A stretch of DNA of 64,000 bases from a virus: positions 18,807 to 82,806 of IMG/VR virus record IMGVR_UViG_3300042321_002788. One strand, written 5' to 3'. The notes under the pieces were generated by a model. It was not told the DNA's origin. It saw only the letters and a program-made list of their open reading frames with translations, and did no database searches. Of the stretch, positions 183 through 52,929 are shown piece after piece. The first letter of the stretch is position 1. Each line of letters opens with the position of its first letter. A program made the position numbers and the translations under genes.

Positions 183-2435
183 ATGATTAACGTAATTCAA
201 AGAAGTGGAGAAACCCGACCCTTAGACATCCCTAAAATTCGACGAGTAGTTGAATGGGCGTGTGAAGGGCTAGAAGTAAATCCCCTCGCTTTAGAATCAG
301 GATTAACTTCTCGATTACGAGATGGGATTACCACTAGAGAAATTCAAGACAATTTAGTCAATGTAGCCACGCAATTGTTTTGTGTAGAAGAAACTGATTG
401 GAAGTATGTAGCCGGAAGACTTCACATCTGGGGATTATGGAAAGATACAAGGATTAAAAGAGAATTTGGCGGCTATTTATCTCGTACGGTTTTTAGAAGA
501 TTAGAAGGAACCGACTACGCTAAATATGTTCAGTGGCAAGTGGATAGGGGTGTTTATAATTCAAAAATTACTGAAATCTATGACGAAAACGATTTAAAGA
601 TTGCGGGGGATTGGATATACCCAGAATACGATAAAGATTTTGACTACGCTGGTGCAATCATGCTGTCAGAAAGGTATTTGCTTGATTGTGAATTACCTCA
701 AGAGGCTTTCCTGACTTGCGCTTTATTGCTTGCGAGTGTAGAGGAAAACCCAGAGAATAGATTAAGAATTGCGTTTCAAATTTACTTAGCTATAGCTCAA
801 AGAAAAATCTCTTTAGCTACTCCAATTTTAGGCAATCTAAGAACCCCTAATGGTTCTTTAAGTAGTTGCTTCATCGTAGCAATGGAAGACAATCTAGAGA
901 GTATTTTTAGCGAGATTACTAATACTGCTCGCATCTCTAAGAATGGTGGCGGTGTTGGGGTAAATGTAAGTAGAATCCGTGCCACTGGTAGCTCGGTTAT
1001 GGGGAAAGCTAACGCTTCTGGTGGAATTATACCCTGGATTAAATTACTCAACGATACAGCTATTGCAGTCAATCAAGGGGGAAGACGCGCCGGGGCTGTC
1101 ACTGTTGGGGTTGATATTTGGCATCTAGACGTGCCAGAATTTTTAGAAATGCAGACAGAAAACGGTGATCAAAGACGTAAGGCTTATGATGTTTTCCCCC
1201 AATTAGTTATCCCCGATGAGTTTATGCGTCGGGTAGTAGATAAATCTGAGTGGACATTAGTTGATCCTTATGAGGTTCGGGCAAAACTAGGGATAGAATT
1301 AGCAGAATTATGGGGCGAAAAATTTGAAGATGCTTACAAATTAATTGAAGATAATCTAGGGACAGAAATTACTCTCTACAGAAAAGTTAACGCTAGGGAG
1401 TTATTTAAAGGTGTTATGCGCTCTCAAGTCGAGACAGGTATGCCCTATCTTGCCTTCAAAGATACCATTAACCGGGCTAATCCTAATAAACACGACGGGT
1501 ACATCCCTCAAGTTAATTTGTGCTGTGAGAGCTTCTCTAATGTCACACCGGGTAAAACAGCCCATTGCTGTAATTTAGTTAGTCTTAATTTAGCCAACAT
1601 TGACACTCTTACTAATTTAGCGGAAATGTGTCATCTTGCTGTTAGAGTGCTTGACAATACAATCGACTTGACTTGTCCCCCGATTGGTGAAGCCAAAACA
1701 CATAATGACCGTTATCGCACTATTGGAGTTGGGGTTATGGGATTAGCTGACTGGTTAGCTAAACAAAAATTATTTTATAAAGACTTTAAATCTATCAATG
1801 ATTTATTTGAAAGAATTAGCTATTATTGTACTCACGCTTCGATGAGATTGGCTAAAAAACGCGGTGCTTATCAAGCTTTTTCCAGCAGTGAATGGAGTCA
1901 GGGTAAATTACTAGGGGCTAAACCATTAGAATGGTTCAACGTAAATTCTGATAATACCTATAATTGGCATCAATTAGCCAAAAGTATTCAACAATTTGGC
2001 ATTAGAAATTCCCATATTACTGCTGTAGCTCCCAACACTACTTCTTCCTTAATTCAAGGTTGCACTGCCAGTGTTTTGCCCGTTTTTAAGCGGGTATTTA
2101 CAGAAAAGAACTCAAAGGGTGCTATCCCTAATTGCCCTCCTTTTATTAAGGATTTCTTTTGGTATTACCAAGAGAATCAAAATCTTGATCAAAAGATTGT
2201 CGTTCAAGCGATTGCTGAAATGCAAAAATGGATTGATACAGGGATTTCTATGGAATTACTATTTAACCTTAATCAGGGTGTTTATTTTCCTGACGAACCT
2301 AACCGCGTATTAACAGTTAAAGAAATTTACGAAACTCTAGTTTTAGCGTGGGAATCAGAATGTAAAGCAGTCTATTATGTACGGACTGTTCAGAAGGATA
2401 ACTTTAAAGATAGCTGTTCTAGTTGTGCTAATTAA
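183..2435 (+). CDS. nrdA: Class I ribonucleoside-diphosphate reductase, alpha subunit
   Basis: This subunit reduces ribonucleotides to deoxyribonucleotides together with the beta subunit encoded just downstream, feeding phage DNA synthesis in the cytoplasm. The N-terminal ~90 residues resemble an ATP-cone. The catalytic N445/C447/E449 set lies in NLCCES. C227 (SSCFIV) and the second Cys of HCCNLVSLNL fit the redox-active pair. YYVRT near the C terminus matches the paired tyrosines of the radical pathway, and C745/C748 in SCSSCAN form the C-terminal shuttle. At 750 residues it has normal length for the class. The start has AGGAG 7 bases upstream. No intein interrupts it, although phage RNRs often carry one. 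The key residues seen make an active enzyme likely. Confidence 0.96.
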   Translation: MINVIQRSGETRPLDIPKIRRVVEWACEGLEVNPLALESGLTSRLRDGITTREIQDNLVNVATQLFCVEETDWKYVAGRLHIWGLWKDTRIKREFGGYLSRTVFRRLEGTDYAKYVQWQVDRGVYNSKITEIYDENDLKIAGDWIYPEYDKDFDYAGAIMLSERYLLDCELPQEAFLTCALLLASVEENPENRLRIAFQIYLAIAQRKISLATPILGNLRTPNGSLSSCFIVAMEDNLESIFSEITNTARISKNGGGVGVNVSRIRATGSSVMGKANASGGIIPWIKLLNDTAIAVNQGGRRAGAVTVGVDIWHLDVPEFLEMQTENGDQRRKAYDVFPQLVIPDEFMRRVVDKSEWTLVDPYEVRAKLGIELAELWGEKFEDAYKLIEDNLGTEITLYRKVNARELFKGVMRSQVETGMPYLAFKDTINRANPNKHDGYIPQVNLCCESFSNVTPGKTAHCCNLVSLNLANIDTLTNLAEMCHLAVRVLDNTIDLTCPPIGEAKTHNDRYRTIGVGVMGLADWLAKQKLFYKDFKSINDLFERISYYCTHASMRLAKKRGAYQAFSSSEWSQGKLLGAKPLEWFNVNSDNTYNWHQLAKSIQQFGIRNSHITAVAPNTTSSLIQGCTASVLPVFKRVFTEKNSKGAIPNCPPFIKDFFWYYQENQNLDQKIVVQAIAEMQKWIDTGISMELLFNLNQGVYFPDEPNRVLTVKEIYETLVLAWESECKAVYYVRTVQKDNFKDSCSSCAN

Positions 2436-2492
2436 CCATGAATATCATTTTTTCTGTTATTTTATCAATACTCGAAAAAATAAATAATCATT

Positions 2493-2774
2493 ATGGCAAT
2501 AATAATTATTGACTTTCTAGCAACTATTGTATTAAGTATATTTTTACTTTATACTGCTTTAATTTTTGCTGTTGTCTTGTGTAGAGTGTTTTTTAGATTT
2601 AAGACTAATTTAATCTGCACAGTTAAACAATTCAAATACTATTTAACAGATGAATATAATCGGATTAGTTCTTGTAAATATTATAATCCTGAAACCCATA
2701 AAGATTTTAATTTGAAATGTAGTGTAAATCCCTCTATTTCTTGTGTACAATGTAAAAACTGGGAGCTAAAGTAA
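2493..2774 (+). CDS. Small membrane protein with Cys-rich tail, DUF6464-like
   Basis: This 93-residue protein sits between nrdA and nrdB in the same direction. Residues 1-35 form one strongly hydrophobic segment, likely a membrane anchor. The C-terminal ~40 residues contain ordered cysteines (CKYYNPE, then CSVNP, then CVQC), like a small metal-binding module. This pattern resembles what I recall of the cyanobacterial DUF6464 family, but only loosely. A redox link to RNR is tempting from position but unproven. No strong ribosome binding site precedes the start. Confidence 0.6.
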   Translation: MAIIIIDFLATIVLSIFLLYTALIFAVVLCRVFFRFKTNLICTVKQFKYYLTDEYNRISSCKYYNPETHKDFNLKCSVNPSISCVQCKNWELK

Positions 2775-2783
2775 AGTAAAACT

Positions 2784-3851
2784 ATGCCATTGATCGGTCT
2801 TAACAATAAAATGCCCGTTTCCCCGATCTTCAATCTGTCGGGAGATGATGCAATCGAAAACCGTTCGATCTGGTTTGGTAACACTACCAACCTGATGCAA
2901 TTAAACGATGTTCGCTATACTTGGGCTGTAAGTTTGTATCAACAGATGCGTGAGAATTTTTGGATCCCGCAAAAAATAGATATTACTCAAGATATAACTG
3001 ACTATAATAATTTAACTCTTGACGAAAGACGTGCCTATGATGGTATTTTGTCTTATCTAACTTTTCTTGATTCTGTACAAACCTGTAATATTCCTCACTT
3101 AAAATCTTGCGTCACAGCCCCAGAGATCAGCCTTTGTATGGCAGAACAAATCTCTCAAGAGGCTATGCACAATCAAAGTTATCAATACTTGATTGAGACT
3201 ATTATTCCCTCAAACAAAAGGGCTGAAATTTATGATTTATGGCGCACCGATAAAGTTCTCAAGGATCGCTGTGAATTTATTGCTAGTTCTTATCAAAAAT
3301 ATATTGACAGCCCAGCACAGAGTAATTATTTTGGTTCTCTTGTCGCTAATTATATTCTAGAAGGACTGTATTTCTATAATGGGTTCCAGTATTTTTATAA
3401 TTTAGCTTCTAGACATCTAATGGCCGGTAGTGCTGACGTTTTCAAAATGATCAACCGGGACGAATTAAGTCACGTCCGTTTGTATCAAAAATTAATTATA
3501 GAAGCATTGCATCTATTTCCAAAAGAGTCAATTAAAAAAGGTATAGCAAGTTCTTTCTTGGAGGCTGTTAATCAAGAAATTAATTGGTCTAACCATATTA
3601 TCGGTAATCAAATACTGGGCATTACTGAAGAAAGTATAGATCACTATACTAAATACCTTGCCAATATTCGACTAAAAGCCATCGGCTTAAATCCAATTTT
3701 TACCGAGGTCAAATACAAAAAATCTCCCTATTCCCATTTAGAGAAATTCTCTGATACTCAAGGGGAAGGTCACACTAAGTCAAACTTTTTTGAAGCAACT
3801 GTTACCAGTTATGTTATGTCTTCTGGCTTAACGGGATGGGATGATATTTAA
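2784..3851 (+). CDS. nrdB: Class I ribonucleoside-diphosphate reductase, beta subunit
   Basis: This subunit holds the diiron cofactor and tyrosyl radical used by the alpha subunit. Expected ligands are visible: D96, E126 and H129 in EAMHNQSY, E193 in ILEGLYFY, and E227 and H230 in RDELSHV. Y133, four residues after H129, sits where the E. coli radical tyrosine (Y122) lies. The spacing 126-129-133 equals the E. coli 115-118-122. At 355 residues it has typical length. It follows the small Cys-rich gene by 9 bases and ends before a strong hairpin terminator. Placement beside nrdA supports a working class Ia-type enzyme. Confidence 0.95.
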   Translation: MPLIGLNNKMPVSPIFNLSGDDAIENRSIWFGNTTNLMQLNDVRYTWAVSLYQQMRENFWIPQKIDITQDITDYNNLTLDERRAYDGILSYLTFLDSVQTCNIPHLKSCVTAPEISLCMAEQISQEAMHNQSYQYLIETIIPSNKRAEIYDLWRTDKVLKDRCEFIASSYQKYIDSPAQSNYFGSLVANYILEGLYFYNGFQYFYNLASRHLMAGSADVFKMINRDELSHVRLYQKLIIEALHLFPKESIKKGIASSFLEAVNQEINWSNHIIGNQILGITEESIDHYTKYLANIRLKAIGLNPIFTEVKYKKSPYSHLEKFSDTQGEGHTKSNFFEATVTSYVMSSGLTGWDDI

Positions 3852-3885
3852 CAGCATCGCTCGATAAGACAGAAAGCCGTTGATG

Positions 3886-3916
3886 CCACCTTTTTTTCGG
3901 TTGTGCTAAAAGGTGG
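3886..3916. terminator. Bidirectional hairpin terminator between convergent units
   Basis: A stem of CCACCTTTT paired with AAAAGGTGG closes a loop of about 13 bases. It lies 35 bases after the nrdB stop and 120 bases beyond the end of the convergent tail-fibre unit, so it can stop both. Confidence 0.75.
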
Positions 3917-4036
3917 TTATTATTGCCACTCTTGTCTTGCTATGTGATCAATTCTGCTGGTGGAATACTAATTCCAGCTAAGTATTTTCTGTAATTCAAT
4001 TTAAATTCTCCAAATATTTTCTGATTTTATTTTACC

Positions 4037-4813
4037 TTAAATATCAGAAACAAGAGGTGGACGATTTTTAAAAGGGTGATCTGTAATCAACCTTGAAAGT
4101 AAAAGCCCCTGCCATCGATGTGCAAAATAACCTTCTATCTTCTGAATATCTGGTATTGTCCAATTCGTAAAAATTGCTATTTCAGTAAAGCGAGAAGCAG
4201 ATGCAAAAAGATTATTATCGCGCTGACCCAAGCATAGCACAGACGTAATATTGTCTTGGCGAGCGGGCGTAGCTTGTACGGCTCTCCCGTTTAAGTGCGC
4301 TCGCGTCACGTTGTTGCCGCTCTCCCCGTAAGCTCCGCCGATAATGCAATTATCGTAAAAAGATTGGGGTGTACCAATCGGCGTATCGGCATACGGACCC
4401 GTGTCGTTGTTGATGGCTCTTATTGATCCATTAAAAGACAAATGAAGTTCTTGGCAGTTAGAATTAGTTCCATCATTTCTTGACCAAGCAAATGGAGGCT
4501 GAGAATTATTATTTGGATACCCAAAAACGGCAAAAATCGCTATATTTTGTGGTAAGACATTAGTTGTTAATAAAGAGTCATTTACTCCATCAAGAGCAAC
4601 ACAAGGTCGTCCTGCAAAAGTGTCAGTAATAGGTCGTTTTCCTGCTGTTGGCTGAATCAAATGATTGTTTTGTCCGCTCAAATCATTCCATCGTGATACA
4701 GCATCAGCGACGAGAGTAATAGTTCCACTAAGAGAGGCATCCCACCAACCCAATAATTTAATACCAAGATTAGTAGGTGTCCATAATGGGGGACTGGCAT
4801 TAATTATTAGCAT
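4037..4813 (-). CDS. LamG/concanavalin-like lectin domain protein, putative tail receptor-binding protein
   Basis: This 258-residue protein is the last gene of a minus-strand tail module. It opens with WWDASLSGTI, followed by WNDLSGQNNHL and the beta-rich spacing of concanavalin-like/LamG sandwich domains, here filling nearly the whole protein. Such domains usually bind carbohydrate, so adhesion to host surface glycans is the likely role. The preceding small gene carries a remnant of the same N-terminal motif, indicating duplication. The host ligand cannot be told from sequence. Confidence 0.75.
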   Translation of the reverse strand: MLIINASPPLWTPTNLGIKLLGWWDASLSGTITLVADAVSRWNDLSGQNNHLIQPTAGKRPITDTFAGRPCVALDGVNDSLLTTNVLPQNIAIFAVFGYPNNNSQPPFAWSRNDGTNSNCQELHLSFNGSIRAINNDTGPYADTPIGTPQSFYDNCIIGGAYGESGNNVTRAHLNGRAVQATPARQDNITSVLCLGQRDNNLFASASRFTEIAIFTNWTIPDIQKIEGYFAHRWQGLLLSRLITDHPFKNRPPLVSDI

Positions 4814-14416: not shown

Positions 14417-14614
14417 ATGAATCTGTACCTAATTAGAGATTCAGTTACATCATTTGGTCTTCTTATTGCAGCAGAATCAGAAACAGAGGCTATCTGGCAT
14501 TGGTGCATCTATTTTCATAGCAATAACGACAATCCAATCGAAATAGAAGAAATTAACATTAATACTTCTGGTATCGTTTGGAAATGTGGATGGACTACTG
14601 ATACTAACCCCTAA
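14417..14614 (+). CDS. Hypothetical small protein
   Basis: This 65-residue protein has a good GAGGA 5-9 bases before its ATG. It starts MNLYLIRDSVTSFGLLIAAE, a pattern seen in small phage proteins of unknown role that form a short alpha/beta fold. Its 3' end overlaps the convergent terminase gene by 11 bases. Confidence 0.6.
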   Translation: MNLYLIRDSVTSFGLLIAAESETEAIWHWCIYFHSNNDNPIEIEEININTSGIVWKCGWTTDTNP

Positions 14615-17480
14615 AACCGCTCCTAAACCGATTAACAGGAGCAGAAGTAATAATCGTGCTAATAACCTTTTCATGTCCCTGAAACTCATTTTCAAGGGAA
14701 TAAAATGCTCCCGATAGGCTATCTACAATGTCATTGGTCGGAGGTGTTTTCTTACTGCCATCAAAACCCTGACAGGCATTTAAAAACCGAGTGTTCCACG
14801 TCCCATCTCTTAAGATAAAGATTTGTCCCCGACTAGCTGCCGTGGCTACTGGTAAAGCTCGTGTTAGCTTATCCCCTTGAGGTGCTATCGCTCTAATATC
14901 ATGATTCGGATGATTTTCCCTAATTACATTAGTAATGGTATTCTCAACAAATTTACCGCTCGACCCCCCTTCTTGCTCCCATCTTACAGCTACAGTTTTC
15001 CCATCCAATTCAGCAGTATTTTTAAGCATTAATTCCACTTCCCCGACCTTTTTCTGCTCACAGATATTATCGGCAATCACATAAGTAAATTCCTTAATCT
15101 CAGTTGAATCTGACAGTGTATTTTTAACTCTTTGGTATTTATAAACAAGAGTCCCACTGGTGTAACAGTGATAGTTTTCAGCATTTTCTTTAGCAGTTGC
15201 CGCTAAATCCCAAAACCTCACTTTACCTATTAACTTCCAATCATCGGGTACTTTATCGAGAATCTCAAACCAAGTCCGATCAAATACCGTACCAGCTTCG
15301 TATTTAACTTTCCAGTTACCCCTGAGAAGTCTTTCCCGCTCAATAGGATGTAAAGCGTAAAGGTTAGCCAAATAGGTAGGGTTAACCCTAATTAAAGCTG
15401 GATTATCAAAAATCGTAGCTGGAATAAAAGTAAAACTCTTAATCAGTTTATCTGGTGTAATATTAGTATCTATATTTGATAAAAACTTTTCTCTTTTATC
15501 TTTAGGAATAAGGTCAAAAAGTTCATCTTTAAGACTAAATTTATCGATTAGTTCTTCTTTAGTATCAGCCCAATGGACTACACCTCCTTGCCTAACAAAA
15601 TATCGAACTATTCCCCCTCTTTCTTCAATAGCATACCCAGTCTTAGGGTCGATCCACCAAGAGATAAAACTAGCTACCCAAGAGTCAGCGTCAGGGTTAC
15701 AGGTTGCCCTAACTGCGGGTTTAATGCCTGATACCGAACGGTTTCTAGAGAGAAGATAGAAAAATTGCTCCTCTGTAAAGTGAGTTAATTCATCAAAACC
15801 TATCCTTGCAATTTGTCCCCCTTGATAAACATAGACAGTTTTTTCGTATTGTAAATGTCTAAAAGATATTTTCGATCCAAATGGAAATCGCCACCCCGGA
15901 GGCTTTTCAATAAAATTACCTTTCACTGCTTGATAGATTTTTTGGCTTTCATCTATTAGTCCACCCGCTTGAGTAAATTCAGGATACGTCCGACGAAATA
16001 TAACAGCCCGATAGTCAGGATTGCTAATAAATTCTTGACGGGCAAAATCAATTAATAGCCCGGCACTATTATGCGTAACTATATAATCATCTGTTAAATA
16101 AAGATGATTTGGATTGCTAACAGTAATACAACGAGCGTAATCAATTTCAGTTGGTTCGATAGAAACAATTCTTTTACCCGGCCAACTTGATCCCCCATTA
16201 AATTGTCCAAGCATTTTCGCTCGTTCAACTTTACGCGGCAAACTAAAAAGTAATTCAAGGTGATTTCCCTCAACAGCCACGACGTAAGCTGTACGACCAT
16301 CTAAATGCTCCTCTTTATATCTATATTTTGGTTGTCTTTTCGTAATCTTAGCCATATAACCCAAAGAACGAACCAAAGAAGCTACCTGAATAGCCAAATC
16401 TTTACTGGTTGTGCAATAGGAAACTTCTCTTTTTTTGTCTCCAACAGTTCCATCTGTATCAAAAAGACCTTGAGCAAACGCATAACGAAAATCAAGAGAT
16501 GCCGATAAATAGCCGTCGGGAAATACTTTTTCCCACGCTCTTTTTCCTTTATATTCATTGTTGCTTATCCAAGACTTAACCCATTGAACTTTTGTCGCGT
16601 TGACGGATAAAACTTCTAAACGGTTATCTTTTATTGGTGTTCGTGTTTTAACGGTAGCTTCTTTCCCTAAAATATCAACGAGTTTATCAGCAATAAATCT
16701 ATCAGAAGTTGTTACGATAATTGAATCACTACAATAAGAACCATCGCCTATTAAACAACCGTAGAAATAGGCTCTGCCAGTATCAGACCTGTTAAGTGCC
16801 GTAAATTGCAATGGCGCGTTAACTGGAACAATAAACCGTCTTCCTTTGCTAATCTCAGTAATCAACCAATTAGTATCCCTAACCCTTGCTCTTGTAATGT
16901 AATTAGTATTCCATCCTCTAGGTGTCAGATTCTCCTCAATTCGATTAATCCCGTTACTGGACTTCCTGCGGCTATTACGGCGAGATTCCCAAAAAGACCA
17001 TAAATGATCGCCACAGCATTCTGTACTTGTACCGTCTTCAAAAGAAACCCGATAAAATTGTTTGAATCCCTGTTCGTGAATTTGGATGATTTCTTGATAC
17101 TGACCATCAGGATTCATAATCTTATCCCCGACTTTAAGATCAGAGAAGTCGATCCATTGACCGCTCCATCCCAAGACCTTTGAATCTTTCATTTGTGATT
17201 CATTAAAACTACTATTATATGATAATAGTCTTTTCCCTAAAAGCGCATCCGCCATAGAAAGCATTTTATCTCGAATCGCTTTTCCTGTCTTGGATGCACG
17301 CCCTGCTTTTCCACTTCCTGCGCCTCCGCCATAGAAGATTACATCAGCGTCAATTTCCCCAAATAAAGCTTGTTTTCCCTCTTGTAATTGAGGAAAAACA
17401 ATTTCTTCTTTGGTGTTAACAAGTCGATATTTTTCGGTCGCTGTTTTTATCTTAGATAGATTTCTATAAGATAGTTTCAT
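14604..17480 (-). CDS. terL: Terminase large subunit (TerL) interrupted by a class 3 intein
   Basis: TerL is the packaging ATPase and nuclease that drives DNA into proheads. The 958-residue precursor has Walker A GGGAGSGK at 51-58, split from its Ser (S472) by a 413-residue intein. IGFDELTHF is the Walker B, and the C-terminal half carries an RNase-H-like nuclease with FWDLAATA. Removing residues 59-471 leaves 545 residues, normal for TerL. It overlaps the upstream small subunit gene by 17 bases. Activity should depend on protein splicing, because the insertion disrupts the ATP-binding loop. Confidence 0.93.
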   Translation of the reverse strand: MKLSYRNLSKIKTATEKYRLVNTKEEIVFPQLQEGKQALFGEIDADVIFYGGGAGSGKAGRASKTGKAIRDKMLSMADALLGKRLLSYNSSFNESQMKDSKVLGWSGQWIDFSDLKVGDKIMNPDGQYQEIIQIHEQGFKQFYRVSFEDGTSTECCGDHLWSFWESRRNSRRKSSNGINRIEENLTPRGWNTNYITRARVRDTNWLITEISKGRRFIVPVNAPLQFTALNRSDTGRAYFYGCLIGDGSYCSDSIIVTTSDRFIADKLVDILGKEATVKTRTPIKDNRLEVLSVNATKVQWVKSWISNNEYKGKRAWEKVFPDGYLSASLDFRYAFAQGLFDTDGTVGDKKREVSYCTTSKDLAIQVASLVRSLGYMAKITKRQPKYRYKEEHLDGRTAYVVAVEGNHLELLFSLPRKVERAKMLGQFNGGSSWPGKRIVSIEPTEIDYARCITVSNPNHLYLTDDYIVTHNSAGLLIDFARQEFISNPDYRAVIFRRTYPEFTQAGGLIDESQKIYQAVKGNFIEKPPGWRFPFGSKISFRHLQYEKTVYVYQGGQIARIGFDELTHFTEEQFFYLLSRNRSVSGIKPAVRATCNPDADSWVASFISWWIDPKTGYAIEERGGIVRYFVRQGGVVHWADTKEELIDKFSLKDELFDLIPKDKREKFLSNIDTNITPDKLIKSFTFIPATIFDNPALIRVNPTYLANLYALHPIERERLLRGNWKVKYEAGTVFDRTWFEILDKVPDDWKLIGKVRFWDLAATAKENAENYHCYTSGTLVYKYQRVKNTLSDSTEIKEFTYVIADNICEQKKVGEVELMLKNTAELDGKTVAVRWEQEGGSSGKFVENTITNVIRENHPNHDIRAIAPQGDKLTRALPVATAASRGQIFILRDGTWNTRFLNACQGFDGSKKTPPTNDIVDSLSGAFYSLENEFQGHEKVISTIITSAPVNRFRSGFRG
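16068..17306 (-). mobile_element. Class 3 intein with LAGLIDADG homing endonuclease inside terL
   Basis: The intein runs from A59 to N471 of the precursor. Hint blocks are visible: DLKVGDKIMNPDGQ, then GDHLW, then RCITVSNPNHLYLTDDY and YIVTHN followed by Ser. W161 two residues after the block B His, C451 in block F and T469 before His-Asn make the WCT triad of class 3 inteins, which initiate splicing from the internal Cys instead of residue 1. This fits the non-nucleophilic Ala at position 1. FYGCLIGDGSY and FAQGLFDTDGTV are the two LAGLIDADG motifs with their acidic residues, so homing activity is plausible. Confidence 0.88.
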
Positions 17481-48686: not shown

Positions 48687-48786
48687 GTTTCAATCTCTAA
48701 TAAGGCTTAAGCTTAATTGTTTCAGTCGGGCCGGGAGATAGCCTTTTGTTTCGATCAAGTTTCAATCCTTAGTTAGGCTAACCATG
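48687..48786 (-). repeat. Orphan degenerate CRISPR repeats
   Basis: A 37-bp unit at 48687-48723 differs from the array consensus at only 2-3 positions. After a 35-bp spacer-sized gap a second, more decayed unit begins at 48759 (GTTTCAATCCTTAG...). It is cut off from the main array by the gene at 48851-49144. This looks like an old array end split by insertion or rearrangement. Confidence 0.7.
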
Positions 48787-48850: not shown

Positions 48851-49144
48851 TTATTCTTTATAATTATTAATAGTTTCCCAGAAATAAATTACTAGCAGAG
48901 ATTTATTTCTTTTAAGTATTAGCTCTTGCCAAAAACGAAAACTTTCAAAAAAATTATACCATCCAAAAGGAACATCAACAAAAATACTATCTAAAATGAT
49001 AAGTAGATACCTCTCGACAAAATTGCGTATTGTTAAGATTAAGATTAAAAAACGTGGTTTTATTTCCATTTCTTTTAGTTCCGCTTTGGTTAATTTTTTC
49101 CTTAAAAATTGACTAATCTTTTTATCTAGTTGTGTTTGATTCAT
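48851..49144 (-). CDS. Small membrane protein (VPFGWYNFFE family, copy 2)
   Basis: This 97-residue protein has a basic N terminus, a hydrophobic middle (FLILILTIRNFVERYLLIIL) and DVPFGWYNFFESFRFWQELI, paralogous to the protein at 47253. It lies between the orphan repeats and the main CRISPR array on the same strand. It may have inserted into the array. Confidence 0.65.
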   Translation of the reverse strand: MNQTQLDKKISQFLRKKLTKAELKEMEIKPRFLILILTIRNFVERYLLIILDSIFVDVPFGWYNFFESFRFWQELILKRNKSLLVIYFWETINNYKE

Positions 49145-49169
49145 TGTTTTTTTTCGGGTTTAATATTTA

Positions 49170-49801
49170 GTTTAATCTTAATAAAGTTTAAGCTTAATTG
49201 TTTCAAAAGGAGATTAAAAATGTATAACGATTATACCAATGTTTCAATCCCTAATAAGGCTTAAGGTTAATTGCTTCCGATGCTGTGGCCTATGTAGAGG
49301 CTGCCGGTGAGGACTGTTTCAATCCCTAATAAGGCTTAAGGTTAATTGCTTTAATATCTCCCTTTAACTCAGACTGACCGATTTCTGTTTCAATCCCTAA
49401 TAAAGCTTAAAGTTAATTGCTTTTCATCATAGATCAGCAAGGTATTCAGGGAACTATGTTTCAATCCCTAATAAGGCTTAAGCTTAATTGCTTCATCCCC
49501 CCGTACCCGTGCGGCCTCTACACAATACCAATGTTTCAATCCCTAATAAGGCTTAAGGTTAATTGCTTCTGACACAGAACCGAGTGAGGCTGTGGACATA
49601 GAGGTTTCAATCCCTAATAAGGCTTAAGCTTAATTGCTTCGCTCTCGCTATGCAGTTAGATAGTCAACAGGATAGTTTCAATCCCTAATAAGGCTTAAGC
49701 TTAATTGCTTCCCCCCTTATAGCGAGAGACTAGGGCATAAGCCCCATGGCGATCGAGCGTTAGAGTTTCAATCCCTAATAAGGCTTAAGGTTAATTGCTT
49801 C
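49170..49801 (-). CRISPR. CRISPR array next to a TnpB/Cas12-like nuclease gene
   Basis: Eight 37-bp repeats start at 49241, 49316, 49387, 49458, 49533, 49604, 49675 and 49765, with a ninth degenerate unit at 49170-49204. As printed they begin GTTTCAATCCCTAATAAGGC and end TTGCTTC; two end in TTT. Spacers are 34-38 bp except the last (49712-49764), which is 53 bp. Base 26 varies between G and C. Degeneration at the low-coordinate end places the leader next to the nuclease gene, so transcription is probably leftward and crRNA repeats end in ATTGAAAC. No cas1 or cas2 is seen. Confidence 0.93.
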
Positions 49802-49898
49802 CCATCTTCCTTTAGCCTTTGATATAAAAGGGTTTCGGGTAAGGATTGCGCCCCATTCGCTAAAATTCAGTTTTCAAGGTTCTGCTCATTCCAAAAAA
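49802..49898 (-). promoter_or_regulatory. Putative CRISPR leader or guide-RNA-related segment
   Basis: The 97 bases between the nuclease stop and the first repeat contain, on the minus strand, GAACCTTGAAAACTGAATTT, reminiscent of cyanobacterial CRISPR leaders. GGGGCGCAATCC follows, a motif repeated inside the end of the nuclease gene at about 49941-49955. Short complementarity between CAATCCTTA and the repeat's TTAGGGATTG is too limited to call a tracrRNA. Confidence 0.45.
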
Positions 49899-51782
49899 TC
49901 AGGCTAGTAAATCCCAGATTGTAAGCTGGTCGGGGTTTTCGGGGATTGCGCCCCGTGATTTTTTAGAATTTCGCTTAGATGCCTTATTGGGTAAGGCTTC
50001 CAGGTTATTTATGCCGTGGCTATCCTCGCACGGCTGAGGTGGGGCGGAAGAAAAAATAAGGGATTGCGAGTCATTCTCGGACTGAGTGGGAGTGCGATTC
50101 CCTTCCTGCTTTATCTGCTTACTAATCGAGTGTTCGGCATTCTCTATTGGCGCGTCCCCAATAGACTCTTGATTTGCATCAAGATCAGGCGTGAATTTCC
50201 CTGCTAAACCAGGGTATTTTCCAATCATAGAGACAGGAAACTTGATTAAAGAGCTAATCGCTCTTAAAAACTCATCTCGTAAGCCACGGATCAGAATATT
50301 TGCGGCGGCATTCTGATCGGCGTGGGCTTCATAGCCACAGCTAACACATCTAAACTTTGATTGACTAACGCGGTTAGCTTTATCAATATTACCACAATTG
50401 AAGCAAGTTTGTGAAGTATGTTTAGGATTAACTCGGATCACTTTTCTGCCACGTTCGTTAGCTTTATTTTCGATAAATGTACGAAGTTGTCCAATAGCAT
50501 TATCAAGTAATGCCTTATTTAATCCGGACTTTCTTTTTTTGCCATTTTGTTTATAGCCATCACCGTCTTCTCTTTCTTTAGGTTTTGCGGCGGCTGTCAT
50601 GTTTTTTAGTTTTAAATCTTCTAAAATAACTGATTGATATTCGCTGGTTATTTTATGGGCTAATTGAGCATTTCTCCCTTTTCGCTGACGAGCAATTTTC
50701 TCATGAACACGGGCAAGTTTAGCGTAGGTTTTACGCTGATTATTAGAGTTATCTTTTTGCCTAGAAGCTTGACGCTGTAGTCGGTTAAGTCGCTTTTTCT
50801 GAATTTTTGCGTAGCGTTTAGCTTCTGATTGTCTCCCTAAGTCATCGGTAAATATTGCCACAGCACCCATATCTAAACCAACACATTTATCAGATTCTTT
50901 ATAGATCATGTCGTCGGTTTCAACGGTTAACTGTAGATAATATCCCGTCGCTTTACGAGTAATTTTAGCCATTCGGGGAGCTTTCCCTTGTAGTCGGTCA
51001 ATCCCCCGTACTTTCAGTAATCCTATCTTTGAAGAAACAATAACCCCATTAGATTCAATCTTTATAGTTTCAGGTTGACCGTTAACAAGAGTCTCTACCT
51101 TATCCCGTCTTCTTTTAAACTTAGGAATCCCACGGATACCTTTTTTAGCGGCATCATAAGCAGGTTTAATCACACTTCTAAAAAAGCCTTTTTTAAACTC
51201 TGTTTCAATTTCACCGATAAATTTTGCTGTATCTTCTCGAAAGTAAAAAGCAAGTTTCTCCCTATTGAGATAATTAATAGCATCCTTGTCAATATTTTCG
51301 GCATTCTTGAAACGACGGATAGGAATAGCATATAAGGGAGTATATTCTTTTCTGTTGCTTGTCTTTTTAAAATAGGCAATTTTACAGCAAGGATTGCCAA
51401 TTAAAAGTTCTTTTTCTTTATCTTTAAGGGCTTTAAACTCTTTTTCGTCATAATCCCCAGAATAACTTAACTCCCATATTTCAGGGCTAAACTCATCAAA
51501 TTTATGTTTTTTGCGATAATATCTTTGCTTTGATTCTTCCTTAAGTGCGATCGAAAGATTCCAGAGTAACTTACACGCCGCTAAAGAACGATCAATCTCT
51601 GTGATTTGTTCTTTAGTAGGATGTATCTTAAATTCCAAGACTTCCATAGAAGATTTTTCTTCTTTTTTCTTAGGAGTCTTTTTTACGATACTAAACCCTA
51701 GATGCCCATCTTTAGAACTAGGCGTTTTTTGAATTTGATACTCATCTACTTTACGCTTAACTTTACTTTCTTTGGCTTTCAT
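49899..51782 (-). CDS. Compact TnpB/Cas12-like RuvC nuclease (type V-U-like CRISPR effector)
   Basis: The ATG at 51782 has AGAAGG 8 bases upstream and suits the promoter TSS; an ATG at 51800 would add 6 residues. In the resulting 627 residues the RuvC centre is complete: D304 (GLDMGA), E388 (VILEDL) and D489 (HADQNAAANI). A Cys4 zinc ribbon (C460/C463/C479/C482) lies between II and III. The N-terminal ~290 residues carry the TnpB-type opening (FKIHPTKEQ, CKLLWNLS). It is longer than TnpB (~400) and ends in a ~125-residue hydrophilic tail with DQLTIWDLLA. Next to the array it should act as an RNA-guided DNA binder or nuclease. Confidence 0.87.
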   Translation of the reverse strand: MKAKESKVKRKVDEYQIQKTPSSKDGHLGFSIVKKTPKKKEEKSSMEVLEFKIHPTKEQITEIDRSLAACKLLWNLSIALKEESKQRYYRKKHKFDEFSPEIWELSYSGDYDEKEFKALKDKEKELLIGNPCCKIAYFKKTSNRKEYTPLYAIPIRRFKNAENIDKDAINYLNREKLAFYFREDTAKFIGEIETEFKKGFFRSVIKPAYDAAKKGIRGIPKFKRRRDKVETLVNGQPETIKIESNGVIVSSKIGLLKVRGIDRLQGKAPRMAKITRKATGYYLQLTVETDDMIYKESDKCVGLDMGAVAIFTDDLGRQSEAKRYAKIQKKRLNRLQRQASRQKDNSNNQRKTYAKLARVHEKIARQRKGRNAQLAHKITSEYQSVILEDLKLKNMTAAAKPKEREDGDGYKQNGKKRKSGLNKALLDNAIGQLRTFIENKANERGRKVIRVNPKHTSQTCFNCGNIDKANRVSQSKFRCVSCGYEAHADQNAAANILIRGLRDEFLRAISSLIKFPVSMIGKYPGLAGKFTPDLDANQESIGDAPIENAEHSISKQIKQEGNRTPTQSENDSQSLIFSSAPPQPCEDSHGINNLEALPNKASKRNSKKSRGAIPENPDQLTIWDLLA

Positions 51783-51810
51783 AGATCGACCTTCTTTCAT
51801 TTTTATTTAA

Positions 51811-51839
51811 ATCTACCATAACCCTGCTAGAAATGTCAA
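51811..51839 (-). promoter_or_regulatory. Promoter of the nuclease gene
   Basis: On the minus strand TTGACA (51839-51834) and GTAGAT (51816-51811) are 17 bases apart. The sequence from TTGACATTTCTAG to GTAGATTTAA is almost identical to the promoter at 52270-52298. Confidence 0.75.
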
Positions 51840-51891
51840 GTAAGAAGTCTAAAGATTTTTAATGTCAAATAATGGGATACCAGTTCCCACA

Positions 51892-52224: not shown

Positions 52225-52269
52225 AACTTATAGTAAAAAAAGGTGCTAAACTATATTTGACTAACTTAA

Positions 52270-52298
52270 ATCTACCATAAGCCTACTAGAAATGTCAA
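52270..52298 (-). promoter_or_regulatory. Promoter duplicated from/with the nuclease promoter
   Basis: TTGACA (52298-52293) and GTAGAT (52275-52270) are spaced 17 bases. It differs from the nuclease promoter at about 2 of 30 positions. It overlaps the start of the small plus-strand RHH frame. Confidence 0.75.
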
Positions 52299-52432
52299 GT
52301 AAAAATTATTATCCTCTTAACGTCCGTACATCAGAATCAGAAGAGAAAAAGCTAAAAAACTACTGTAAAGCCCAAAAGCGGTCAATAACCGAGGTAGTCC
52401 GAGAATTGATTAGAAGTTTACCCGATAACTAA
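52292..52432 (+). CDS. Tiny ribbon-helix-helix protein
   Basis: This 46-residue frame reads YYPLNVRTSESEEKKLKNYC...SITEVVRELIRSL, an N-terminal strand plus two helices exactly as in CopG/Arc proteins. A terminator follows at 52462. Its start overlaps the minus-strand promoter, so binding there could regulate the divergent gene. Support is the fold pattern, not a clear ribosome binding site. Confidence 0.6.
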   Translation: MSSKNYYPLNVRTSESEEKKLKNYCKAQKRSITEVVRELIRSLPDN

Positions 52433-52875: not shown

Positions 52876-52929
52876 CTTCTGTACTATTATCTTTTTGTAA
52901 GTTTTTTGCAAGTTTTTTTTTAAAAATAC

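Follow-up and report, generated by a model that had tools for sequence, protein, structure and literature searches.

The window analyzed here is a 64,000-nucleotide stretch of viral DNA (bases 18807 to 82806 of the 82,806-base IMG/VR record IMGVR_UViG_3300042321_002788) from a virus whose host is the bloom-forming cyanobacterium Microcystis. It carries a gene for a compact, TnpB-like nuclease and, 3' of this gene on the same strand, a clustered regularly interspaced short palindromic repeats (CRISPR) array. The effector gene (49899 to 51800, minus strand) encodes 633 amino acids from its first ATG, and the array (49241 to 49801, minus strand) consists of eight 37-nt repeats, with 0 to 3 mismatches each, and seven spacers of 34 to 53 nt. 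The 97-nt gap between the end of the gene (49899) and the nearest repeat (49801) is the leader (49802 to 49898, minus strand), which runs from the stop codon to the first repeat. A first-pass annotation of the same DNA had placed a 37-bp repeat array 97 bases from the nuclease, as found here. The 627 residues that it gave the protein are counted from the second ATG, and its catalytic residues D304, E388, and D489 are D310, E394, and D495 in the 633-residue numbering; this RuvC triad and the zinc ribbon (C466, C469, C485, and C488) are indeed intact.

For the array, the minus strand gives the most natural reading (GAAGCAATTAACCTTAAGCCTTATTAGGGATTGAAAC), opposite to the direction first assigned, as the repeat ends in ATTGAAAC, the gene, leader, and array are codirectional, and a decayed ninth repeat (49168 to 49204, minus strand, 12 mismatches) lies at the leader-distal end. 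Beyond the array are two older remnants, a repeat with three mismatches (48687 to 48723, minus strand), separated from it by a 97-amino-acid open reading frame (ORF; 48851 to 49144), and a second one at about 48758 to 48779. The lowest-numbered candidate spacer (49205 to 49240, window_8) was rejected as flanking sequence, sharing 31 of 36 bases with the sequence just past the last repeat in the related loci L007 and L017, and was removed from the spacer counts for DNA-level targets, translated targets, and the flanking motif.

Profile searches supported the assignment of the effector to the compact, TnpB-derived type V-U2 (C2c8), in keeping with the V-U2-like phage effector first proposed. It scored 469.4 bits against the NCBIfam C2c8 profile (cut-off, 350) and 555.9 bits against PADLOC Cas12u2 (E = 2e-167), and profile alignment returned Cas12p, TnpB, Cas12f, and LaTranC as relatives with solved structures; an AlphaFold2 model built from alignment A3 was too poor for a fold search (mean pLDDT, 47; pTM, 0.27). 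That the gene is instead an ordinary IS200/IS605 tnpB beside an unrelated array would agree with its TnpB-type Pfam domains and with a score over the cut-off of the guided_TnpB subfamily model, the latter as expected of the wider family. However, the IS200 TnpB model gave 141.7 bits, far below its cut-off of 425, while the C2c8 profile is passed; Y1 transposases were found in none of six viral records by a search that was positive in 5 of 14 control genomes and did not extend to serine or other transposases; and the linkage of gene and array is kept not only in viruses but also on a plasmid and a chromosomal contig. An ordinary transposon gene is thus highly improbable. Cas1 was likewise found in none of the six related viral records, the same search (which did not include Cas2 or Cas4) being positive in 9 of 14 control genomes. 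The initial description of a locus lacking cas1 and a TnpA-like gene was supported.

Seventeen close viral loci encode effectors 90 to 97% identical to that in the window, and all 17 have an array of the same repeat family 3' of the gene, giving approximately 10 distinct arrays besides that of the window. A wider scan brought the total to at least 79 viral loci, these 17 included. In 14 of 18 more distant phage V-U2 loci (L146 to L163), repeats cluster on the 3' side of the gene, and the repeats of the four loci that were inspected are unlike the window repeat. Outside viruses, plasmid p1 of Microcystis aeruginosa NIES-2481 (NZ_CP025929.1) carries a gene annotated by NCBI as c2c8, 92% identical to the window effector, with a 22-spacer array, and 15 of 340 genomes drawn from the order of Microcystis sp. 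LSC13-02 contained matches over the C2c8 cut-off. In one relative, L058, a 21-residue stretch is triplicated inside the effector gene.

Spacer targets in a family of small Microcystis plasmids

A spacer search of phage and Microcystis genomes, proposed as a check in the first-pass annotation, led to a family of small plasmids. The spacers of the phage arrays were reduced from 89 to 81 nonredundant clusters and searched as one concatenated query. In 12 Microcystis genomes the matches clustered on small contigs, G012:C2 (7,606 bp), G003:C2 (6,987 bp), G007:C108, and G007:C112. The length and match coordinates of G003:C2 are those of the NIES-2549 plasmid NZ_CP026286, and the only record matched in a plasmid collection was NZ_CP026286.1. 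These four contigs have several small proteins and an integrase in common, the integrase match of G003:C2 being weak. Their replication proteins vary, with CyRepA1 in G012:C2 and G007:C108 and another type in G003:C2. A CyRepA1 protein is present in all 12 Microcystis genomes (544 to 553 bits), on contig C1 in G002, G003, G010, and G012, and the plasmid copies are additional to these. Relatives of the same plasmid-family genes occur in three islands (L115, L116, and L119), and some further spacer matches lie in host CRISPR arrays (L114, L117, and L118).

Six of the seven window spacers, all on the minus strand, match the plasmid and island set in translated comparison, in which the best ungapped score in any stop-free frame was required to reach a threshold of 40. 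Spacer 1 (49712 to 49764, 53 nt) matches the plasmid-family integrase gene, with 48 of 53 positions identical to L110 and an identical peptide, LTLDRHGAYALVSRYKG; the 5' flank of the protospacer is ATT in L110 and L112 and GTT in L113. Spacer 5 (49424 to 49457) also matches the plasmid-family integrase (peptide SSLNTLLIYD) and is overlapped in reverse orientation by a spacer of the host array L118. Spacers 2 (49641 to 49674; ALAMQLDSQQD/ALAIQLDSQKD) and 4 (49495 to 49532; PPVPVRPLHNTN/EPVPVKPVHNFN) match plasmid-family peptides, and spacer 6 (49353 to 49386) is identical at 33 of 34 positions to the chromosomal island L115, which holds plasmid-family genes, with GTT as the 5' flank. The plasmid-family match of spacer 7 (49278 to 49315; DAVAYVEAAGED/DATAYLAAASED) is weak, lying exactly at the threshold, and its score was equaled by 1 of 120 shuffled spacers. 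Spacer 3 (49570 to 49603) did not pass and has no significant target.

Across the phage arrays, 55 of 88 spacers had a translated match to the plasmid and island set, compared with 52 of 555 control spacers, taken from the I-D-type repeat arrays of six host loci, and 5 of 528 shuffled spacers; random 35-mers matched in 11 of 519 cases when drawn from chromosomes and in 2 of 466 when drawn from phage. As the plasmids had been found with 20 of the spacers, these were removed, after which 35 of 68 still matched (P = 1e-15). At the DNA level, the four plasmids were matched by 29 of 88 phage-array spacers and 37 of 555 host spacers at an E value of ≤0.002 (odds ratio, 6.9; P = 1e-10), and by 15 of 88 and 19 of 555, respectively, at 1e-6. 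The converse held for this phage lineage, which was matched by 50 of 555 host spacers and 2 of 88 phage-array spacers at ≤0.002, some of these matches covering 15 nt only, and by 25 of 555 and 1 of 88 at 1e-6. Taken as sequence matches, these counts indicate that the phage-array spacers are mainly aimed at one family of small Microcystis plasmids. Of the target classes suggested earlier, namely rival phages, host genes, or mobile elements, the last is thus favored, in the form of one plasmid family, and rival phages and host genes are not the main targets.

Several points weigh against this reading. The plasmid family was discovered with the same spacers, a circularity corrected solely by leaving those spacers out. 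The genomes of the host control overlap those holding the plasmids, which possibly depletes control matches, and the 88 spacers, though unique, include some that are variants of each other. Plasmid targeting is also not exclusive, since the 12 Microcystis genomes all have a chromosomal locus matched by the spacer cluster L006_1/L016_1 (in L120, the one annotated, a gene for a SpoU methylase) and spacer L015_2 matches a sister phage, the record of L010, at 35 of 36 positions. Finally, the plasmid and island set was matched by only 2 of 22 spacers from the p1 array, which adjoins the same effector, and by 3 of 114 spacers of distant phage V-U2 loci; the bias is therefore demonstrated for this phage lineage alone.

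Searches for other targets gave little. The 81 spacers, compared at an E value of ≤0.01 with G000 and 13 of 17 related records (those other than L009, L013, L016, and L018), revealed no self target, the only matches outside arrays being those of L015_2 and of window_8. Nothing firm was found in isolate phages, where only L011_3 matched, at 28 of 30 positions, Ma-LMM01-type DNA without annotated features (E = 0.08, seven records). In exact scans of viral contigs, full-length spacer 3 and 19- to 22-nt pieces of spacers 2, 4, and 7 were unmatched, and a 26-nt core of spacer 1 was matched only in the array of L008. The distant phage V-U2 spacers had no match to plasmids in the part of the set that was searched (3,242 letters, separators included, out of 4,698 for all 114 spacers).

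Array growth and a probable link to host type I-D systems

The arrays of L004, L008, and L014 have three leader-distal spacers in common, in the same order, with three further spacers common to L004 and L014, and diverge at the leader end. The repeat variants of L005 fall into two uninterrupted blocks, 12 on the leader side and 13 leader distal, a pattern expected if the leader-proximal repeat is copied at every insertion. Common leader-distal spacers, differing leader ends, and the repeat blocks of L005 together indicate that the phage arrays grow at the leader end, though no cas1 was found in the phage.

Protospacers were examined for a protospacer-adjacent motif (PAM), omitting those within 8 nt of a contig end. 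Among distinct protospacers, GT was present at positions -3 and -2 (5'-GTN) in 10 of 11 with up to three mismatches (P = 4e-13), 16 of 22 with up to five, and 21 of 30 with up to eight, against a background GT frequency of 4.6%. Without collapsing, the counts were 12 of 13, 19 of 26, and 24 of 31; sites in the host arrays L114 and L117 were dropped from these, and those in L118 and sites with more than eight mismatches were also dropped from the collapsed set. The PAM of type I-D is reported as 5'-GTH in Microcystis (PMC7648086) and as GTN in Synechocystis (PMC10212523). Four spacers of the host array L019 that match this phage also correspond to protospacers flanked by GTT or GTC.

The repeat points in the same direction. 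In three genomes (G008:C45, G010:C1, and G007:C274), arrays with the repeat GTTCCAATTAATCTTAAACCCTA(T/C)TAGGGATTGAAAC share a contig with csc2 and cas1. By hand count, the window repeat differs from the G010 I-D repeat at 6 of 37 positions, the last 16 bases (TATTAGGGATTGAAAC) being identical, and from the host-type repeats of L019 at 5 to 7. Cas1 was detected in 8 of the 12 Microcystis genomes and csc2 in 6, with neither in G001, the genome of L019. On this comparative evidence, it was probably host type I-D adaptation that, acting in trans, put the spacers into the phage arrays, which is the simplest account of their source. It is a point against it that the likeness of the leader to host I-D leaders is limited to 12 nt (GAACCTTGAAAA, common to the window leader and two host leaders) and, by eye, GGGGCGCA.

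The main rival for the spacer source is recombination between phage and host I-D arrays, in which spacers would be swapped and not acquired de novo, since three distinct phage spacers are also present in host arrays. L002_5, L005_1, and L005_6/L009_3 match host-array spacers from the same first base over 31 to 34 nt, and the array of L019 begins with two phage-type repeats followed by host-type repeats. Such exchange is nonetheless quite unlikely as the source, as the viral arrays hold phage-type repeats, the two blocks of L005 fit duplication of the leader repeat, and the plasmid bias is sharply unlike that of host arrays. In L019 (Microcystis sp. LSC13-02), the V-U2 gene (1070 to 4062), located between cas6 and a long array, is split by a tnpB gene.

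Selection on the effector and a candidate scaffold at its 3' end

In nine comparisons with the window, omitting effector copies of other length or incomplete, dN in the effector core was 0.014 to 0.025 and dS was 0.145 to 0.258 (dN/dS, about 0.1); as dN is far below dS, the nuclease core is kept by purifying selection. No variation at D310, E394, or D495 was seen among the 12 sequences of alignment A2, a hand-chosen set (the window protein, 2 from phages, and 9 from hosts) that leaves out L046 to L050, or among the 12 of A3; a profile alignment to the solved Cas12p agreed with an intact triad and zinc ribbon. These results bear on whether the effector, rather than cutting plasmids, binds them and represses or blocks their replication as a roadblock. 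There is precedent in Cas12m, a compact type V protein described as protecting by binding instead of cutting (PMC11013384), and a regulatory role was proposed by the authors of the Aphanizomenon phage CL131 study (PMC6293099). The intact triad in both alignments and the low dN/dS of the core make pure binding unlikely, in contrast to some array-less host relatives (L047 to L050), in which the triad, specifically the first RuvC aspartate, has been lost. The latter are four of the five strongest C2c8 profile matches, with GISLG or GVSLG replacing GIDPG and no array detected nearby, and are probably nuclease-dead V-U2 derivatives.

The 3' end of the gene behaves differently from the core. In codons 509 to 633, the C-terminal tail (49902 to 50276, minus strand), synonymous changes, counted between all pairs among 11 sequences, were 2.6-fold lower than elsewhere (2.56 versus 6.69 per codon; P = 5e-5 by permutation) and nonsynonymous changes were higher (5.06 versus 3.00). 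With synonymous changes down while nonsynonymous changes are up, the effector 3' end is constrained at the nucleic acid level, contiguous with the array. The omegaRNA of TnpB overlaps the 3' end of tnpB, and as the constraint here resembles this arrangement, we infer by analogy a candidate guide RNA scaffold overlapping the gene 3' end, which would serve the first spacer in cis and the other spacers in trans. A candidate anti-repeat in the leader, CAATCCTTA (49840 to 49848, minus strand), has TAGGGATTG in the repeat as its predicted pairing partner. In RNAalifold, all 11 sequences retained this 9-bp pairing, and the changes in it were one-sided throughout; of the 101 pairs predicted for the region as a whole, 3 had a two-sided change. 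Weighing against the anti-repeat, the best same-strand site in an energy scan of the window (-22.7 kcal/mol) was not above background (-22.5 kcal/mol elsewhere), and the same scan of six host V-U2 loci gave no consistent site. In L054 and L055, both of them host loci, there is overlap between the first repeat and the effector stop codon, as if the array arose from a duplicated, omegaRNA-like 3' end.

The tail of the window protein ends in QLTIWDLLA. A putative sliding-clamp motif, QLxL(W/F) or QLxLxL, was present in the last 45 residues of 17 of 24 V-U2 proteins, several of them near relatives, and was encoded by differing codons; it takes the forms QLTIW, QLTLF, and QLxLxLW and lies at 49902 to 49928 in the window. 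It was found in none of 30 pattern-picked TnpB-like ORFs and in 14 of 239 general ORFs, a set that includes some V-U2. A QLxLF consensus at transposase C termini has been described (PMC4549789). Functional importance of the motif is countered by a premature stop ahead of it in the L011 clade, by the CL131 frame, which also stops before it, and by evolution of the tail under nucleotide and not protein constraint. In CL131 (L208), the effector frame ends early and the downstream DNA retains a CACAGCTTACTCTCTGG element that is coding in the relatives L153 and L158.

The RNA-level constraint also bears on which nuclease uses the array. The GTN PAM and I-D-like repeat equally suit interference by host I-D Cascade, which speaks against use by the phage effector. 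The array could be a host mini-array, processed by host Cas6 and used for cutting by host I-D Cascade, with the V-U2 gene a linked passenger or acting elsewhere; the repeat end identical to that of G010 and the I-D PAM favor this, and archaeal viruses provide published examples of mini-arrays that host cas genes are proposed to supply and use (PMC6858448). However, purifying selection on the effector core is strong, an array adjoins the effector in all 17 close viral relatives, the arrays downstream of distant phage V-U2 genes have seemingly unrelated repeats, and the constraint at the gene 3' end is contiguous with the array. We therefore regard a host mini-array as improbable.

Two further features of the window were recorded. 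A 40-nt direct repeat (93%), found at 51807 to 51846 and 52266 to 52305 and with a partner in inverted orientation near 52927, lies to the promoter side of the effector gene and is a possible regulatory or boundary element. The terminase large subunit (14604 to 17480, 958 amino acids) had weak matches to intein-bearing families, which suggests that it holds an intein. An Rfam search returned two tRNAs.

Proposed role and comparison with known systems

The reading that we consider probable, though well short of certain, is that of a phage-borne, anti-plasmid V-U2 CRISPR system restocked by its host. The system of this Microcystis phage would comprise one TnpB-derived nuclease, a scaffold probably lying over the gene 3' end, and a short array. 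The host I-D adaptation complex would accept the I-D-like repeat, pick protospacers behind GTN, and insert spacers at the leader end, with spacers retained mainly against one small-plasmid family with common backbone genes. During infection, the RNA-guided effector would most likely cut or block these plasmids, along with their integrated relatives, and so rid the phage of a competitor, a satellite-like parasite, or a carrier of defenses. A primase/helicase-like protein of the phage (59366 to 62263, plus strand) is homologous to the 679-amino-acid replication-type protein of the target plasmid L111 (E = 3e-88), so that competition for replication, or a satellite relation, is a plausible form of benefit. 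Effector family, intact catalytic residues, selection, array dynamics, PAM, and targets can be read from the sequence, whereas acquisition in trans, use of the guides by V-U2, cleavage, and phage benefit are deduced. A fuller version, which we hold tentatively and judge slightly less likely to be right than wrong, is that the phage array poses as an I-D array, the host stocks it with GTN plasmid spacers, and V-U2 with its hidden scaffold, perhaps clamp-tethered by QLxLW, destroys a plasmid family that parasitizes or resists the phage.

Type IV-A3 plasmid CRISPR systems reportedly acquire spacers in trans and use them in interplasmid conflict; they differ in being class 1 and plasmid borne, with an effector that is not TnpB derived. 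Plasmid p1 of NIES-2481 has a 92% identical effector, the same repeat, and a very similar leader, but the system is on a 147-kb plasmid, and 2 of its 22 spacers resemble the small-plasmid set. The type I-F system that phage ICP1 directs against the PLE is likewise a phage CRISPR against an element of its host (PMC11656645), but it is of class 1 and complete, including an adaptation module of its own. For the archaeal viruses SPV1 and SPV2, a viral mini-array is proposed to be fed by host adaptation, with spacers against competing elements (PMC6858448); these viruses have no effector gene, carry one or two spacers, and target sister viruses.

The closest published system is that of Aphanizomenon phage vB_AphaS-CL131, so that the phage-borne V-U2 class was already known, and the first-pass suggestion of a relative of CL131 and not a wholly new system was correct. 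CL131 likewise carries a gene for a C2c8-type effector, followed on its 3' side by an array, and the available portion of its report mentions no other Cas genes and no trans-activating CRISPR RNA, gives a target for one of ten spacers, and suggests a regulatory role (PMC6293099). The two systems differ in effector (36.7% identity to the published CL131 protein), in repeat, and in the interrupted tail frame of CL131; the PAM, target family, and spacer dynamics given here for the window lineage were not found for CL131 in the same portion. A literature search on V-U2 targets, PAM, and in-trans feeding, its coverage excluding most subscription journals and bioRxiv, returned no report beyond the single spacer match of CL131. 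The targets and spacer source of phage-borne minimal type V systems had been an open question, for which a natural phage population here supplies a target family, a PAM, an acquisition polarity, and a plausible adaptation source, all testable in Microcystis. The PAM and candidate scaffold also allow V-U2 to be tested as a compact nuclease. If the proposal is true, conflict between phages and plasmids, with class 1 adaptation supplying the spacers in trans, would join the known uses of class 2 effectors. What this lineage, with its 17 close viral relatives, adds to CL131 is thus spacer dynamics, a GTN PAM with an I-D-like repeat, a plasmid target bias, and a constrained gene 3' end.

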